A stretch of DNA of 36,245 bases. Origin: a virus. Positions within the stretch are counted from its first letter, which is position 1, and each line of letters opens with the position of its first letter. Below are positions 12,276 through 18,348 of the stretch, piece by piece. The notes beneath the pieces were generated by a model. It was not told where the DNA came from and made no database searches. It worked only from the letters and a program-made list of their open reading frames with translations. Where the stretch lies: positions 1 to 36,245 of the IMG/VR virus record IMGVR_UViG_3300028794_000186; one strand, given 5' to 3'. The position numbers and the translations under genes were made by a program.

Positions 12276-12895
12276 AAATTCTTGTTGCCTGCGAATTCTC
12301 CGGAACCGTCCGGCGGGCATTCGCCGCGCGGGGACACGACGCTTGGTCGTGCGATTTGCTACCGGCGGAAGATGGCTCAAACCGACATATTGTAGGCGAT
12401 GCTCGCGACATTCTTGGCGACGGATGGAACCTGCTTATTGTCGCGCACCCTCCCTGCACGCGGCTTTGCAATTCCGGCGTTCGCTGGCTTTCCAACCCCC
12501 CGCGCGGCCGCACCATTGACGATATGTGGCGTGACCTTGACGAGGGCGCAGCGCTGTTCTCCTCCTTCTGGAACGCGCCGATCGACCGCATTTGTGTCGA
12601 AAATCCCGTAATGCATCGTCATGCAAAGACGCGGATCATAAATTACGAGCCGCCAGCGCAGAGTGTCCAGCCGTGGCAGTTTGGACATGGCGAAATCAAG
12701 CGGACTTGCTTCTGGCTCAGGAACTTACCTGCGCTTGTACCCACGAATGTGGTCGACGGTCGCACAGCGCGCGTGCATCGAATGCCGCCGGGGCCGGATC
12801 GAGCCAAAGAGCGGTCGCGGTTCTTCTCCGGGATCGCAGACGCGATGGCTGATCAATGGGGTGAACTGCGCGCCGACTGTGAGGTGGCGGCGTGA
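12272..12895 (+). CDS. cytosine-methyltransferase-like phage protein
   Basis: A 207-residue protein that starts like SAM-dependent C5 methyltransferases: KILVACEFSGTVRRAFAARG (motif I region), DAWSCDLLPAE, and a Pro-Cys loop in AHPPCTRLCNSGVRW with Cys62 in the catalytic place. ICVENPVMHRHA resembles the ENP motif. The protein lacks a large target-recognition domain, so it is a compact phage variant whose activity is unproven. The GTG start at 12272 overlaps the previous stop as GTGA. Together with the adenine-type enzyme at 8889 it makes two methyltransferase-like genes in one operon, probably to modify phage DNA. Confidence 0.8.
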   Translation: MKILVACEFSGTVRRAFAARGHDAWSCDLLPAEDGSNRHIVGDARDILGDGWNLLIVAHPPCTRLCNSGVRWLSNPPRGRTIDDMWRDLDEGAALFSSFWNAPIDRICVENPVMHRHAKTRIINYEPPAQSVQPWQFGHGEIKRTCFWLRNLPALVPTNVVDGRTARVHRMPPGPDRAKERSRFFSGIADAMADQWGELRADCEVAA

Positions 12896-14106
12896 CCAAG
12901 CAGGCCCGCTTCTCGATCATTCCCGGCTGGATCGTTACCGATCGGCGTATGAAGCCGCGCGACCTGCAGGTGCTCTGCCTGCTCGGCCGGCACACCGACA
13001 AGCATGGATGGTGCCGGCGTAGCCAGGTGAAGATGGCGGGAGAGCTGGACTGCGCGCGCTCGACCGTGCAGGCGGCAATCGACCGGCTCGCCGATATCGG
13101 CGTCGTGGAAAAGCATGTCGAGGACACGAAATCCGGAGCTGACAGCGCCCATTTCTACCGCGTGGTTTTCGATCGTCCGCCACCCTCAGGCTATGCATTC
13201 GACGCATGGGAAGGTGATGAGGACGAGGACGATAATCCTATGACGGGGGATAATGACGGCGCCCCCCCTGCCGGTATATCGGCACCCCCTGCCGACCCTG
13301 AACCGGCACCCCCTGCCGACTCTGGACCGGCACCTATTAACGACCCTTGTTTAACGACCCCTCTCGAACGAAGCGCGAGAGAGCGCGGACGTGAGGATCG
13401 GAAGGCGATAGAGCGCCGCTATTGGGCATTGGTGAAAAACTGGAAGGGCTTTGATGGCATGCCGAAGGATACCGGCCTGCCGTTCTTTCTCGCCATGGCC
13501 GAGGACAAGCGGACCAAGGCTGAGCGGCGATTTCCGGGATGGTGCGAGCGACTGAAGGCGCAGCGTAAGGATCATTGGCCGTCGCCTTCGTCGTATTTCG
13601 GCAAGGAACTGTTCGAGGATATCCCCGATCCCGACGAACCGGCGGTGCCGCCTGAGATCGTGGCGGCCTTCGGCAAGGGCGGCATGGGATATCGGTTCTG
13701 GATCATGAACCAGCCGGAACGGCAGCACCCGATGCCATCGCCCTTTGTTCAGGGGCGGCTCGATGCCGGTGGCGATATTGCCGAAGACGAGATCATTGCG
13801 CGGCGGGCCGTGCATAGCTGGCCACGGCTGGCTGAGCTGAACCGGCGGATATCGGAACGTGAGCAAATTCGAGTGGCGGCGGATATTGCGGCGTTCGGGG
13901 CGGACTTCATCTCTACCGATCTCGCCGGGCCAGTCGGGCAGGCTTGGAAACGGTTCTTCCGCAAGTGCAGGCTGCCCTGGCTGCCGGTTGAGCCGCAATA
14001 CGCATATCTGCCGCCAGTGGGCGACGGCGAGGATCTGGACAGGGCCGTGGCGGCGGCGTGGTGGCAATTTGCGGAAAGGTGCAAGGGACATGCTGATGCG
14101 GCTTAG
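12892..14106 (+). CDS. helix-turn-helix replication-initiation-type protein
   Basis: A 404-residue protein. Residues 10-90 form a winged helix-turn-helix of the HTH_36 kind (GWIVTDRRMKPRDLQVLCLL, then MAGELDCARSTVQAAIDRLA), as found in phage and plasmid replication initiators. A linker at residues 122-146 has an 8-residue Ala-Pro repeat (APPADPEP, APPADSGP). The C-terminal 240 residues are helical and Trp-rich and are not recognised. The DNA encoding the linker is an iteron array with an AT-richer tail, resembling the lambda origin inside gene O. I infer an origin-binding role. It overlaps the methyltransferase gene as ATGA (12892-12895). Confidence 0.72.
   Translation: MTKQARFSIIPGWIVTDRRMKPRDLQVLCLLGRHTDKHGWCRRSQVKMAGELDCARSTVQAAIDRLADIGVVEKHVEDTKSGADSAHFYRVVFDRPPPSGYAFDAWEGDEDEDDNPMTGDNDGAPPAGISAPPADPEPAPPADSGPAPINDPCLTTPLERSARERGREDRKAIERRYWALVKNWKGFDGMPKDTGLPFFLAMAEDKRTKAERRFPGWCERLKAQRKDHWPSPSSYFGKELFEDIPDPDEPAVPPEIVAAFGKGGMGYRFWIMNQPERQHPMPSPFVQGRLDAGGDIAEDEIIARRAVHSWPRLAELNRRISEREQIRVAADIAAFGADFISTDLAGPVGQAWKRFFRKCRLPWLPVEPQYAYLPPVGDGEDLDRAVAAAWWQFAERCKGHADAA
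13258..13360 (+). repeat. iteron array inside the replication gene, candidate origin
   Basis: GGCACCCCCTGCCGA occurs exactly at 13281-13295 and 13305-13319, with a variant at 13258-13272 (GGCG, seven C, TGCC) and a partial copy starting at 13329. Spacing is 23, 24 and 24 bases. Each unit has an internal GGCA/TGCC dyad. Directly after come two copies of TTAACGACCC (13337-13346 and 13351-13360) in locally AT-richer sequence. The repeat is in phase with an 8-residue protein repeat, so a purely protein-level cause is possible. Confidence 0.6.
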
Positions 14107-14746
14107 GGGTGAATTATCGGCGGCTCGGGTGACCTGGCTTGATCTCAAGCCGGAGCTGAGCGAGCGCGAGAATCGCATTCGGTTGTTCCAGCTTTCGAGC
14201 GCTTCGATGAATGTCATGTGCGACAGTGAGGGCCGTAGCGGCTGGATCTGCCTGCACGTCGAGCGCAACTTTGAAAGAGCTGTGGAAAACGTGCTGATGC
14301 GTGGCGGAATTCTTTCGTACCTGCCGTGCTGGCCAGCGACGAAAACGGCTCGTCGGGGCAATTGCAACCGGCCGAAAGTAAGGCCCGGCAACCCGGTTTA
14401 CCCGTCATATGTGCTCGTTCGATGCGCTCTGGAAACCGATGCGCTGCTCGGTCTTGAGGCCATCCGGCACGTCTATGGCGTGATCGGCGGCATTGAGCAT
14501 CGCGCCGTGATCAGCGATGAAACCGTGAATCGATTCAAAGGGATGGTCGAGAGCGGCATGCTCGAAGAGATAGAGGCGGAGAAGGCGTTGAAGCCCGGCG
14601 ACGTGATGCGGGTTACGCTGGGGCCGTGGGTCGATCACTTCGTCACGATCGTGTCAATTGCCGACGACATGGCCATGGTCGAGGTCGCGCTTTTCGGCCG
14701 CAAGCATGACGTTCCGATGCCTATTGCGTATCTCAAGGAATCGTGA
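14090..14746 (+). CDS. NusG/RfaH-like transcription antiterminator
   Basis: A 218-residue protein with the two-domain outline of NusG paralogues. The N-terminal NGN-like part includes SGWICLHVERNFERAVENVL, a loop with RPGNPVYPSYVLVRC (the strand just after the RNA polymerase contact region) and IRHVYGVIGG. The C-terminal KOW-like domain is LKPGDVMRVTLGPWVDHFVT followed by IVSIADDMAMVEVALFGR and PMPIAYL. Such proteins bind elongating RNA polymerase and suppress pausing or termination. It has AAGGTGCAAGGGAC before the ATG at 14090; an ATG at 14096 is an alternative. It is the last early gene, directly before a structured non-coding stretch and the late genes, the position of lambda Q. Cognate targets are inferred, not shown. 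Confidence 0.78.
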   Translation: MLMRLRGELSAARVTWLDLKPELSERENRIRLFQLSSASMNVMCDSEGRSGWICLHVERNFERAVENVLMRGGILSYLPCWPATKTARRGNCNRPKVRPGNPVYPSYVLVRCALETDALLGLEAIRHVYGVIGGIEHRAVISDETVNRFKGMVESGMLEEIEAEKALKPGDVMRVTLGPWVDHFVTIVSIADDMAMVEVALFGRKHDVPMPIAYLKES

Positions 14747-15000
14747 GAGTCGTTTTGCTACGGATGACTCGCTAGAGTTGTCCCGAAGGACGAGCCGAGA
14801 TCCAGCTTGATGAGTTCCGCAAGGGACAAGATATCCAGTCGGCCCCTCCCCTGACCAAGCCTCACGAGGCGAGTGATTCAGGGCCAGTGCGCAAGCTATG
14901 ACACGATGATGACGAGGCGGCCGAGAGGTCGCCTTTTGTGCGTCTAGGGATATGGGCTGCGATGTCGCCCGATGATCAATCCAACATTCAGGAGGCAGAT
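14747..15000 (+). ncRNA. structured non-coding leader with clustered hairpins
   Basis: This 254-base stretch has no good gene but holds several stems: TTGTCC/GGACGA with a CGAA loop (14778-14793), enclosed by CTCG/CGAG (14768-14771 and 14796-14799); GTTCC/GGGAC with a GNRA-type GCAA loop (14814-14827); CCCTGA/TCAGGG (14849-14854 and 14878-14883) enclosing GCCT/AGGC; and the terminator hairpin with a GAGA loop at 14916-14933. Tetraloop hairpins in series ending in a terminator suggest a structured RNA, either a cis-acting antitermination leader or a small RNA. No known RNA family is recognised. Confidence 0.4.
14915..14952 (+). terminator. terminator module, first copy
   Basis: GGCGGCC, loop GAGA, GGTCGCC (14916-14933) followed by TTTT, extended by an A-T pair, is a good intrinsic terminator. 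It continues with the box GCGTCTAGGGATA (14940-14952). Hairpin and box recur together at 15288-15324. Confidence 0.7.
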
Positions 15001-15252
15001 ATGGAAGCGGTCAAGATGCGTGCGAAGGTTCGTGTTGGTGCTATCCATCCCATGGGCGAGCAGGAAGCCGTGACTTTCTTCGGCGTGGCCAAGAGCGGCG
15101 GATATCCGGCTGACGGCAGCGACGAGGACAATTCCTTTGCCCGCTGGTCGCCCTCGGTCAAGTTCGAGATGACGATCGCTAACCCGAACCTTGTCGGCTC
15201 GTTCAAGATCGGGGAAACGTTCTATTGCGACTTCATCCCTGCACCATCGTAG
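15001..15252 (+). CDS. small phage protein between the two terminator modules
   Basis: An 83-residue protein (MEAVKMRAKVRVGAIHPMGE) with a beta-rich pattern, including SVKFEMTIANPNLVGSFKIG and FYCDFIPAPS at the end. The start at 15001 has AGGAGG 5 bases upstream, the strongest ribosome binding site in this part. It is bracketed by the duplicated hairpin-plus-box modules and is the first gene after the NusG-like gene. The overall form suggests a small beta-barrel protein; I have no function for it. Confidence 0.72.
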   Translation: MEAVKMRAKVRVGAIHPMGEQEAVTFFGVAKSGGYPADGSDEDNSFARWSPSVKFEMTIANPNLVGSFKIGETFYCDFIPAPS

Positions 15253-15284
15253 CCATTCGCGGCTGATCATCGATACTGCATTCG

Positions 15285-15324
15285 AAGGGCGGCCGAGAGG
15301 TCGCCTTTCTTGCGTCTAGGGATA
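15285..15324 (+). terminator. terminator module, second copy
   Basis: GGCGGCC, GAGA, GGTCGCC at 15288-15305, with outer AAG/TTT pairs giving a stem of about 10 bp, followed by TTTCTT and the same box GCGTCTAGGGATA at 15312-15324. Hairpin core and box are identical to the first copy; only the few bases between them vary. Confidence 0.72.
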
Positions 15325-15354: not shown

Positions 15355-15630
15355 ATGCCCGACTATCGCGATGTGAAGCGGCCGACTGCATTGATCAAGC
15401 GTGACCTTACCGACGATGAACTTTCGATCGTGATGGCCGGCGGCAATGAGGCGGCGATCGGCACGGACGTCGCGGGTGCCCATGCCACGCAGCTCGATCT
15501 CTGGTATCTCCCGGAGCAAACCTTAGTTGCTGGCAGGCTTGAGGATGCGACCTTCATCACCTGGTCGTTCAACGGCCACGTTAGCCCGCACGACTGCCGG
15601 GAATGGTATCTGGCCAAGGTCAGGGATTGA
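15355..15630 (+). CDS. small phage protein, unknown function
   Basis: A 91-residue protein, MPDYRDVKRPTALIKRDLTD at the N-terminus, with a Trp-containing beta-rich second half (TQLDLWYLPEQTLV, FITWSFNGHV). The ATG at 15355 has AAGAGG upstream. The stop overlaps the likely TTG start of the HNH gene (TTGA at 15627-15630), so it may be co-expressed with packaging genes. No family recognised. Confidence 0.65.
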   Translation: MPDYRDVKRPTALIKRDLTDDELSIVMAGGNEAAIGTDVAGAHATQLDLWYLPEQTLVAGRLEDATFITWSFNGHVSPHDCREWYLAKVRD

Positions 15631-15962
15631 ACTTGGACGCTCGCAGCAAGGATGCTCGCGAGTGGCGAGGCTGGTACTCACTGGCACGGTGGCGCGGCAA
15701 GTATGGCCGTCGCACCCTGCAGCTCAAGGCAGAGCCTCTCTGCCGGATGTGCATGGCACAAGGTAAGGTGACACGCGCAACGGTCGCCGACCATATCGAT
15801 GCCCATAAGGGCGACCCCGACAAGTTCTGGTTCGGTGACCTGCAGAGCCTATGCGCCGAGCATCACGATGCGACCAAGCAAGCCGAAGAGCATCGTGGGT
15901 TCTCGAACGCGACCGGCTCGGACGGATGGCCGATCGACCCCAAGCACCCGGCCAACCGATGA
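15627..15962 (+). CDS. HNH endonuclease of the packaging module
   Basis: A 111-residue HNH nuclease. CRMCMAQGKVTRATVADHID holds the first Cys pair and the His of the HNH core, HKGDPDKFWFGDLQSLCAEH supplies the middle Asn/Asp region and the second Cys, and HHDATK carries the closing His. HK97-type phages keep such an HNH protein next to terminase, where it stimulates cohesive-end cleavage. It lies directly upstream of a G-rich cos-like stretch and the small terminase. The start is taken as TTG at 15627 (TTGA overlap, AAGGTCAGGGA upstream); ATG at 15603 is the alternative. Confidence 0.85.
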   Translation: MNLDARSKDAREWRGWYSLARWRGKYGRRTLQLKAEPLCRMCMAQGKVTRATVADHIDAHKGDPDKFWFGDLQSLCAEHHDATKQAEEHRGFSNATGSDGWPIDPKHPANR

Positions 15963-16082
15963 CGGGAGGGGGTGGGTCGATCTCTAGACCCGCCGGGGAC
16001 GCCCACCGGCTTGGGGGGTTTGTTTGGAATGAATGGAAATTGAAGGGAAAAAGCCACCTGATGAGGGTGGTGTGAAAGGATC
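15963..16082. other. candidate cos site between HNH and small terminase
   Basis: The 120-base gap starts with a G-rich tract (GGGAGGGGGTGGGTCGATCT), then CTCTAGACCCGCCGGGGACG and a second G-rich run (GGCTTGGGGGG). A G-rich run, TC-ATCTCTAG and CCG-rich stretch between an HNH gene and small terminase is a pattern I know from cohesive-end phages of this type. The cut position and overhang cannot be read. Confidence 0.5.
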
Positions 16083-16544
16083 ATGAAAGGCCGTAAACCC
16101 CACAGCGCTGAAGTCATCCCGATGACCGGTGACAAGCCGTTCGCTAATGCGGACGCGTTTGCAGCGCAGAAGGCGCGGGATCTTCGGCCGGATGATCTGC
16201 CCTTCGACGTGCAGGCGATATGGGATCGGCTTGCGCCGCCCCTCTGCCATCCGACGCGCGACCGGCTGAACGAGGCCAACGCCTTCATGTTCGAGCAGCT
16301 CTGCTGGATCACCTCGCGCTACGAGCGGCTACGACTCGATGTTCGGGAAGGCGGCGAGACCTATGAGACCGAGACCCGGAACGGAACTCAACAGAAGGCG
16401 CGGCCCGAGGTCGGCCAGCTCAACGAGACGTTCCGGCAGATCCGTGCCCTGGCGAGCGACTTCGGGATGACGCCGGCGGCGGAACGCGGACTCAAGAACG
16501 GGGCGCAGCTCGGCTTCGGTTTTGGCGAAGATGACTTCGACTGA
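16083..16544 (+). CDS. terS: terminase small subunit, P27 family
   Basis: A 153-residue small terminase of the P27 kind, which recognises the packaging site and recruits the large subunit. Indicative segments are MKGRKPHSAEVIPMTGDKPF at the start, AIWDRLAPPL, and the C-terminal NGTQQKARPEVGQLNETFRQ followed by IRALASDFGMTPAAE. Start at 16083 has GAAAGGATC upstream. It overlaps the large subunit gene by 14 bases. Confidence 0.88.
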   Translation: MKGRKPHSAEVIPMTGDKPFANADAFAAQKARDLRPDDLPFDVQAIWDRLAPPLCHPTRDRLNEANAFMFEQLCWITSRYERLRLDVREGGETYETETRNGTQQKARPEVGQLNETFRQIRALASDFGMTPAAERGLKNGAQLGFGFGEDDFD

Positions 16545-18348
16545 CATCGAATTGCCTGAGGTCACCTATGATAATGACCCGGTGACCGCTTGGGCGGTCG
16601 ATGTGCTGCAGGGCGTGGTGGTTGCCGGACCGCATGTCCGGAACGCCTGCCGGCGCCATCTGCGCGATCTCGAACATGCGCCGTCGCGCGGCCTGGTGTG
16701 GGATCTCGCCGAAGCCAGGAAGCGCATTGCGTGGTTCCCTCGTAACCTACGGCTCAACGGCGGTCAGTTCGAGGGCATCCCGTTCGTGCTCCATCCGAGC
16801 CAAGCGTTCCGGGTCGGCTCACTGTTCGGCTGGAAATGGAAGGATAGCGGCCTGAGGCGCTTTCGTCGGTTCTATGACGAAGAGGGCAAGGGCAACGGCA
16901 AGTCTCCCCTCCTCGCCGGCATCGGCCTGATGATGATGATTGCCGACCGCGAGCCGCGCGCGGAAATCTATGCGGCTGCAGCGAAGAAGGATCAGGCGCA
17001 GGTTCTGTTCCGCGACGCGGTTGCGATGGTCGACCAGTCCCCTCGCCTGGCCGATCGCATCACGAAGTCCGGCGAGAACCCCGTATGGCAGCTCACCTAT
17101 CGCAGCCAGACGGGCGACAAGCGCTGGTTCAAGCCGATCAGCTCCGACAAGCATCAGTCCGGCCCGCGTCCGTCCTGCGCCCTGTGCGACGAAGTGCATG
17201 AGCATCCGAACCGCGACACGATCGACATGCTGGAACGTGGCTTCAAATTCCGCCGCCAGCCGCTGCTAGTCATGGCGACGAACTCCGGAACCGACCGGAA
17301 GTCGATTTGCTACGAAGAGCACATGCATGCGGCAGCGGTGGCCGCCGGGACGGTTGAGGACGATACGGCGTTTTCGTTCATCTGCTCGCTCGACGAGGGC
17401 GACGATTGGGAGAACGATCCGGATTGCTGGTTGAAGGCAAACCCGCTGCTCGATGTCACGGTCAGCACCGACTATCTCGCCGGCGTCGTGTCGCAGGCGA
17501 AGATGATGCCCGGCAAGAGGAACGGCATCGCCCGGCTGCATTTTTGCGTATGGACGCAATCGATCAATGCCGCGATCAAGCGCGAAGCATGGGTCGCATG
17601 CCGCAAGCCGATCGATGTCCGCGAACTCAGGGCCAAGGGCTATCCCTGCTTCGGCGGTCTTGACCTGTCGCGGACGCGGGACTTTACCGCACTGACCCTG
17701 ACGTGGGTGCTCGATGCGACGAAGGATTCAGAGCGGCTAGCGTCTAAAACATGGTTCTGGACACCTGCGGACACGCTCGCCGATCGCGCCAAGACCGACC
17801 AGGCGCCTTATGAGCTGTGGCGCGACCAAGGCCATATCGAAGCGGTGCCGGGGGCTCGGCTCAAGTATTCCTGGCTGGCCGATGCCATCACCAAGATCTA
17901 TGCGGAATTCGAACCGACTGAGATCGCCGCCGACCAATACGGACTCGAACAGCTTTCCGAGGCGGCCACAGAGCGCGGTATATCTCTGCCGCTGGTCATT
18001 CATCCGCAGGGCTTCCAGAAACGCATTCTGGAAAAGGACAAGGATGCGCCCGAAGGCGAACAGGAAATCTATCTGTGGATGCCAGACAGCATCAACAAGC
18101 TCGAAAACGCGATCCTCGAAGAGCGGATCGAGATCCTTCACAACCCGATGCTCGACAGTTGCGCGGCAAGCGTCGTCTATGCCGAGAACCGCACCGGGCA
18201 GCGGATGTTCGACAAGGCCAATGCCTTCGGCCGTATCGACGGCATGGTCTCCACCGCGATGTCAACCGGCGTCGCACTTTGCAGGGAACGGGCGGCGGTC
18301 GTCGCGTCACCCTGGGACGATCCAACCTTTAGCGTGGTGGCTGCCTGA
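16531..18348 (+). CDS. terL: terminase large subunit, HK97-like
   Basis: A 605-residue packaging motor. ATPase domain: Walker A GKGNGKS at residues 119-125 and Walker B LCDE with Asp220-Glu221 (catalytic Glu). Nuclease domain: Asp378 in GGLDLSRTRD is the first metal-binding Asp of the RNase H-like fold, and AADQYGL is the later conserved strand. Length fits the family. The ATG at 16531 is taken over a TTG at 16522. It ends one base into the portal start (TGATG). Confidence 0.95.
   Translation: MTSTDIELPEVTYDNDPVTAWAVDVLQGVVVAGPHVRNACRRHLRDLEHAPSRGLVWDLAEARKRIAWFPRNLRLNGGQFEGIPFVLHPSQAFRVGSLFGWKWKDSGLRRFRRFYDEEGKGNGKSPLLAGIGLMMMIADREPRAEIYAAAAKKDQAQVLFRDAVAMVDQSPRLADRITKSGENPVWQLTYRSQTGDKRWFKPISSDKHQSGPRPSCALCDEVHEHPNRDTIDMLERGFKFRRQPLLVMATNSGTDRKSICYEEHMHAAAVAAGTVEDDTAFSFICSLDEGDDWENDPDCWLKANPLLDVTVSTDYLAGVVSQAKMMPGKRNGIARLHFCVWTQSINAAIKREAWVACRKPIDVRELRAKGYPCFGGLDLSRTRDFTALTLTWVLDATKDSERLASKTWFWTPADTLADRAKTDQAPYELWRDQGHIEAVPGARLKYSWLADAITKIYAEFEPTEIAADQYGLEQLSEAATERGISLPLVIHPQGFQKRILEKDKDAPEGEQEIYLWMPDSINKLENAILEERIEILHNPMLDSCAASVVYAENRTGQRMFDKANAFGRIDGMVSTAMSTGVALCRERAAVVASPWDDPTFSVVAA

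Follow-up and report, generated by a model that had tools for sequence, protein, structure and literature searches.

A phage gene for a NusG-like protein, followed by two copies of the same hairpin and sequence box ahead of the late genes, raises the question of which of these elements belongs to the protein and what they might control together. The window analysed here is the whole 36,245-nt stretch of viral DNA (IMG/VR record IMGVR_UViG_3300028794_000186), and the genes, hairpins, boxes and RNA element located below lie on its + strand. A DNA methyltransferase gene, a RepO-like initiator gene and the NusG-like gene are followed by an intergenic region, two small genes, an HNH gene and the genes for the small and large terminase subunits. 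The replication initiator-like HTH gene (12892-14106; phrog_270, E 8e-22) is the last early gene ahead of nusG (14090-14746), which it overlaps. Downstream lie small gene 1 (15001-15252, 83 aa; phrog_6978, E 4e-8, and iterative HMM), small gene 2 (15355-15630, 91 aa), for which relatives were sought and none found, and the HNH endonuclease gene (15603-15962, with its start at 15603 or 15633; phrog_2323, E 1e-27), the usual first late gene of relatives. The genes for the small (16083-16544) and large (16522-18348) terminase subunits (PF05119, PF03354, PF20441) mark the start of the packaging and head operon.

The gene at 14090-14746 encodes a 218-aa paralog of NusG (PF02357, E 2e-10; phrog_6386, E 2e-21), as the sequence-only reading of this DNA had supposed. 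Its AlphaFold2 model (pLDDT 89.5) comprises an N-terminal helical extension, an NGN domain and a KOW domain, the last modelled as a beta-barrel and not in the all-alpha autoinhibitory form of RfaH, although AF2 may miss fold switching. PDB profile and fold searches rank NusG above RfaH, and the NusG profile matches span both domains. With NGN and KOW domains and a sequence distinct from housekeeping NusG, the protein is a specialised NusG paralog (NusG-SP); such paralogs score 154-263 bits, versus at most ~135 bits for the remaining, largely presumed host, NusG matches. The helical extension (residues 16-45) is typical of the phage NusG clade and absent from housekeeping NusG, and is a candidate RNA-binding part. 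A single-protein search of viral and genome contigs with the window's NusG returned nothing, and its relatives were recovered by phage tblastn. The NusG proteins of these relatives are mostly 22-40% identical in pairs, which makes the RNA described below the better conserved partner.

The 18-nt hairpin GGCGGCCGAGAGGTCGCC is present in two exact copies (14916-14933 and 15288-15305), as is the 13-nt box GCGTCTAGGGATA (14940-14952 and 15312-15324), and a T-rich tract separates hairpin from box in both. The chance expectation for both copies jointly is far below one, and the 36-kb window holds no third copy of either sequence, even at 2-3 mismatches. Over the span from hairpin to box (14916-14952 versus 15288-15324) the copies share 35 of 37 bases and differ only in the T-tract spacer (TTTTGT versus TTTCTT); the sequences flanking them are unrelated. 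The duplication and the restriction of change to the spacer are thus just as the sequence-only reading described them, and each copy does stand ahead of a small gene; its statement that each directly follows the NusG-like gene holds for copy 1 only, whose hairpin lies 169 nt past the nusG stop codon, whereas copy 2 lies behind small gene 1 and ahead of small gene 2. The exact hairpin-plus-box pattern had zero matches in viral contigs.

Both hairpins were taken for terminators in that earlier reading, and RNA folding (-21 to -25 kcal/mol for 49 nt) and a stem-plus-T-tract scan agree. The scan places both among just four + strand candidates in 36 kb, where simple shuffles give 1-2; a strict consensus terminator scan misses both because their T-tracts are short. 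Each nevertheless has the G+C-rich stem followed by a T-tract, here a short one, of an intrinsic terminator. To judge from these features, the two hairpins are in-series candidates for intrinsic terminators that separate the phage nusG-like gene from the late genes, with terminator 1 at 14916-14937 and terminator 2 at 15288-15311. Box copy 1 overlaps an ATG (14952) from which an ORF of just 7 codons runs, and in box copy 2 this ATG is lost (ATAAGC). Short leader ORFs running from the box ATG ahead of the first small gene, as at 14952-14975 in the window (MGCDVAR), have counterparts behind box 1 of relatives L102 and L062 and behind the box of L005 (MSCRAGLM..., MSIAQAFAS).

Just 5' of hairpin-box copy 1 lies a structured RNA element of ~100 nt (14811-14906) that the first reading overlooked and that we propose as a loading signal for the NusG paralog. 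Covariance model R1 scores it at 64 bits (E 8e-14) as the sole match in the window, so that copy 2 and its terminator have no RNA element of their own. An alignment of 63 non-redundant copies supports four helices: P0 (14814-14827 in the window), with a loop often of GAAA or GCAA type; P1 (14849-14854/14878-14883), CCCTGA/TCAGGG, with many C-G/U-A exchanges and 98.7% paired; P2 (14859-14862/14867-14870), GTCTC/GAGAC plus variants; and P3 (14885-14900), CAGUGC-GNAA-GCUAUG. In the unfitted alignment 82.5% of cells are paired versus 74.2% in shuffles, and 111 cells are altered on both sides versus 47.5, a count that no shuffle attains; the fitted alignment, which leans toward the model, gives 88.3% paired and 169 double-changed cells. 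The invariance of the P3 stem is partly imposed by the search pattern, and phages found via their protein (L003, L007) keep P3 too. The P3 loop, in which three positions were free, is GNRA in 49 of the 63 copies versus ~12.5% by chance given the fixed last A, and UNCG in none; the GNRA-rich loops together with G-U pairs indicate that the element acts as RNA. Rfam gave no relevant match for the window or 8 relatives (isrG and mir-2797 matched far below threshold), and the open literature searched contained no account of this RNA or its link to phage NusG. On the strength of its alignment, the element is a new RNA family with covariation support, absent from Rfam. A promoter scan of 12-18 kb, in which rhizobial promoters are poorly covered, returned no sigma-70-like site, be it at the element, at the box or elsewhere.

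The element is tied to nusG almost without exception. The core pattern GGNCAGTGCNNNAGCTATG, searched in viral and genome contigs, occurs at 243 places including the window, and 123 of these (107 distinct) follow a NusG-like ORF on the same strand, 93-161 nt from its stop; the other places are mostly chance matches, the covariance model confirming just 4 among 100 tested, each at the end of a cut-off locus. In all, the element lies directly after a phage nusG at 124 viral and genomic loci. Four element copies seemingly without nusG (L041, L064, L084, L092) lie at sequence ends, where the nusG side is cut off. Eleven whole genomes carry one element each, with two in one of them. Of 200 whole genomes of the same family, 18 carry the element, in 21 copies altogether, and a NusG-like ORF immediately precedes every copy. 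In this set the element accompanies 19 of 19 NusG paralogs of at least 182 bits, 2 of 11 paralogs of 154-173 bits, and none of the matches at or below ~135 bits, which are largely presumed housekeeping NusG. A search of 384 other alphaproteobacterial genomes, sampled from the class, found none, and in the searches made the element is confined to rhizobial phages and prophages.

Five named phages (Sinorhizobium phi2LM21 and phi3LM21, Rhizobium PPF1, Agrobacterium Rivra and 'Nostoc' Nsp-JY10) share the initiator and nusG genes followed by an intergenic region, in which a common segment lies 5' of a terminator-like hairpin; late genes come next in every one whose record continues. The order rep-nusG-RNA-terminator-HNH/small gene-terminase is kept though NusG is only 24-31% identical to that of the window. 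Sister nusG paralogs have neither the RNA element, by the covariance model, nor the terminator. Downstream of the gene, sister paralogs (L284-L287, L290-L293) have a different conserved 3' segment (CAGGNGACCTG..., GCGCCATCGGCCCCAGG...), which is perhaps a second type of RNA signal.

Comparison with relatives also clarifies the box. A hairpin with a T-tract equivalent to terminator 1 follows the RNA element in 55 of 65 relatives, usually at most 25 nt away, with stems that vary by phage (GGCGGCC/GGTCGCC, GAGCGCC/GGCGCTC, GAGCCCGG/CCGGGC). The element lacks a nearby terminator in 7 of the 65, and in some a tRNA-Met gene takes its place; tRNA-Met (CAT) genes lie between the RNA element and the terminator or late genes at L062:1510-1586, L056:682-758 and L150:4494-4570, all on the - strand. 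In 37 of the 55 terminator-bearing relatives an ATG stands 16-19 nt past the hairpin, the usual distance being 17 or 18 nt. The proteins that begin at this ATG belong to several unrelated families (HNH MGRL..., MSAEI..., MDFQF..., MASKP...). The stretch before it reads T-Y-W-A-R-G-G-K-T; position -1 is T in 89%, and a Shine-Dalgarno-like GGG lies just 0-2 nt from the start codon. By its sequence and position, then, the box is a short linker that joins the terminator hairpin to the first late start codon, and box copy 1 of the window equals this linker.

In loci whose terminator has moved 58-153 nt away from the RNA, the box has mostly moved with it (L036, L079, L081, L182; weaker in L058). The box is absent from element-bearing loci and from nusG-paralog loci that have no terminator, a comparison that is descriptive, the box profile having been trained on terminator-bearing loci. 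It is far more variable in sequence than the upstream RNA, and is recognisable after most relatives' terminators, even in some where it no longer touches a start codon. Judged by this distribution, the box travels with the terminator rather than with nusG. The earlier notion that hairpin and box belong together is thereby upheld across relatives, and the expected link between box and NusG-like gene gives way to another: the feature tied to nusG is the covarying RNA 5' of the terminator.

The second hairpin-box copy can be understood from the layout around small gene 1. Of the HNH relatives the closest is L043 (79% identical), where the box is directly followed by the start of the HNH gene; in the window two small genes and a second hairpin-box stand between the two. 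Iterative HMM searches place the small gene 1 family in L068, L102, L062 and L150, each time as the first protein gene after the RNA element. L102 and L062, which are distant phages, show the window's order of hairpin-box, small gene, hairpin-box and HNH, and in L068 the small gene is accompanied by only one terminator. The hairpin sequences are phage-specific (TTGG and TTCG loops in L102; GGCGGTCCGCAAGGGCCGCC twice in L062), the copies within the window, L102 and L062 being identical or nearly so and those of different phages differing. The layout shared with L102 and L062 indicates that the duplication is recurrent, and not the one-off recent copy, unconserved in relatives, that the sequence-only reading had named as a possible objection. 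The sequences suggest that repeated duplication or conversion made the copies within a phage alike, and the small gene resembles a cassette bounded on both sides by a terminator and box.

We observe the anatomy of the locus, its conservation, the covariation of the RNA, its exclusive linkage to nusG, the terminator-like hairpins and the NGN and KOW fold. From these we infer, as the probable explanation, an early-to-late switch in which the phage NusG uses the nascent RNA element, modifies RNA polymerase and passes the terminator or terminators into the HNH-terminase-head operon. The early operon of this rhizobial-type phage would end in nusG, its transcript continuing into the folded RNA and then the intrinsic terminator, where termination is presumed. 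Once accumulated, the paralog would be recruited to RNA polymerase through contact with the nascent RNA and remain bound, and the modified polymerase would pass terminators 1 and 2 and continue into the HNH, terminase and head genes by processive antitermination. The timing would follow from the supply of NusG, late genes being released once it suffices, and duplication of the hairpin-box around an added small-gene cassette would set a second barrier in series. The short T-tracts, the 7 of 65 relatives without a nearby terminator and the sister paralogs without RNA and terminator speak against such a switch. An attenuator was also considered: pairing between the RNA and the terminator arms does not exceed that obtained when arms are exchanged between phages, and this want of complementarity beyond chance makes simple attenuation unlikely.

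The sequence-only reading had suggested that the box could be the recognition element of the NusG-like protein, which here would mean an ops-like nontemplate-DNA recruitment site, a reading favoured by its exact duplication and its recognisability after most terminators in relatives, in some even away from a start codon. We consider this very improbable: the box sits 3' of the terminator to be overcome, and a site beyond the termination point cannot aid polymerase over that terminator. Its absence from nusG-paralog and element-bearing loci without terminators, its variability relative to the RNA and its overlap with the first late start codon in most terminator-bearing relatives point the same way. 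Of that reading, the antitermination idea, in the inferred form given here, and the pairing of hairpin and box find support; the box is probably not the recognition site. The RNA might instead act directly on RNA polymerase, as HK022 put and Tn916 canT do, with the paralog accessory or acting elsewhere; protein-free antitermination RNAs (PMC9378689, PMC11658703) provide precedent and conservation is much higher in the RNA than in the protein, but every element lies directly behind a nusG of one clade, with zero elsewhere in the whole genomes searched, and that two distinct parts are never found apart points to a joint function, which leaves the protein-independent reading unlikely.

A structured RNA ending in a terminator is also the anatomy of many sRNAs, so the pair could be a separate, 3'-UTR-derived phage sRNA whose terminator is merely its 3' end. 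That the RNA stays where the terminator is missing, displaced by 58-153 nt or behind a tRNA gene in several relatives, and that its position always guards the late operon, give this proposal only a slim chance. More plausible, though still doubtful, is that the hairpin-box duplicates are just a pair of repeats for recombination, through which the small-gene cassette is gained and lost, copy 2 having no regulatory role. Copies near-identical within a phage and different between phages are what repeated copying or conversion predicts, and L068 has the small gene with one terminator; recombination would account for copy 2, however, and not for the conservation of hairpin 1, the RNA or the nusG linkage, and it is compatible with the proposed NusG-RNA switch.

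Among known systems the locus most resembles LoaP of Bacillus velezensis, which requires a leader RNA hairpin, of UNCG type, to pass an intrinsic terminator (PMC12691694). As with LoaP and the dfn/mln hairpin, a NusG paralog is encoded beside its target operon and a small cis RNA structure, adjoining the paralog gene, lies 5' of an intrinsic terminator, with readthrough into a long operon, here proposed. The LoaP targets are antibiotic operons, whereas those here are phage late genes in alphaproteobacterial hosts; the single UNCG-type hairpin contrasts with an RNA of several helices and mostly GNRA loops, no P3 loop being UNCG; and the phage paralog has an extra N-terminal helix and a function that is so far predicted. 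LoaP-type antitermination further comprises protein-RNA binding and relief of NusA-dependent intrinsic termination, which would be expected of the phage protein too. Lambda Q, AlpA and GafZ (PMC11150451) likewise serve phage-type late operons, with a terminator immediately after the antiterminator gene as the gate, but proteins of the Q type fall outside the NusG paralogs and are loaded at promoter-proximal DNA, whereas the linked signal here is an RNA structure. RfaH is also a NusG paralog with a dedicated cis signal; ops, however, is nontemplate DNA at a pause, read before the terminator, whereas the conserved signal here is RNA before an intrinsic terminator, the box lies 3' of the hairpin in both copies and in relatives, and the phage KOW domain is predicted to be a beta-barrel. 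HK022 put, EAR, Tn916 canT and conAn1-conAn2 of pLS20 are cis-acting antitermination RNAs of mobile elements too, and conAn pairs a protein with its RNA (PMC9378689, PMC11658703); Rfam shows no similarity to them, and the RNA here is tied to a NusG paralog. In light of these comparisons, the locus is most likely a new variant of RNA-guided NusG-paralog antitermination, LoaP-like with a different RNA. More speculatively, and with rather low confidence, it could represent an undescribed class of late switch, in which the paralog and its own RNA pass the terminator and, ribosome-bound like RfaH, the paralog hands the ribosome to the start codon held at ~17 nt past the hairpin with its closely spaced GGG, coupling antitermination to translation of the first gene.

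With a covariation-supported RNA family outside Rfam tied, essentially without exception, to one phage NusG clade, control of phage late genes by a NusG paralog and an RNA becomes directly testable. If the proposed switch is correct, it would carry the LoaP principle, in which a protein and a leader RNA together counter intrinsic terminators, over to alphaproteobacterial phages, and would explain how many prophages of rhizobia and the Brucella group could turn on their late genes with no recognisable Q protein.

Nsp-JY10 (L004; PP395642.1, 'Nostoc phage') carries a rhizobial-type nusG and the RNA element; its stated cyanobacterial host may be doubtful, the true host perhaps being a companion bacterium. 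A G/C-rich palindromic stretch lies at 15964-16030, between the HNH and terminase small subunit genes, with similar stretches in the corresponding position of L004 and L006; this stretch, and not the hairpin-box site, is a possible candidate for the cos region.
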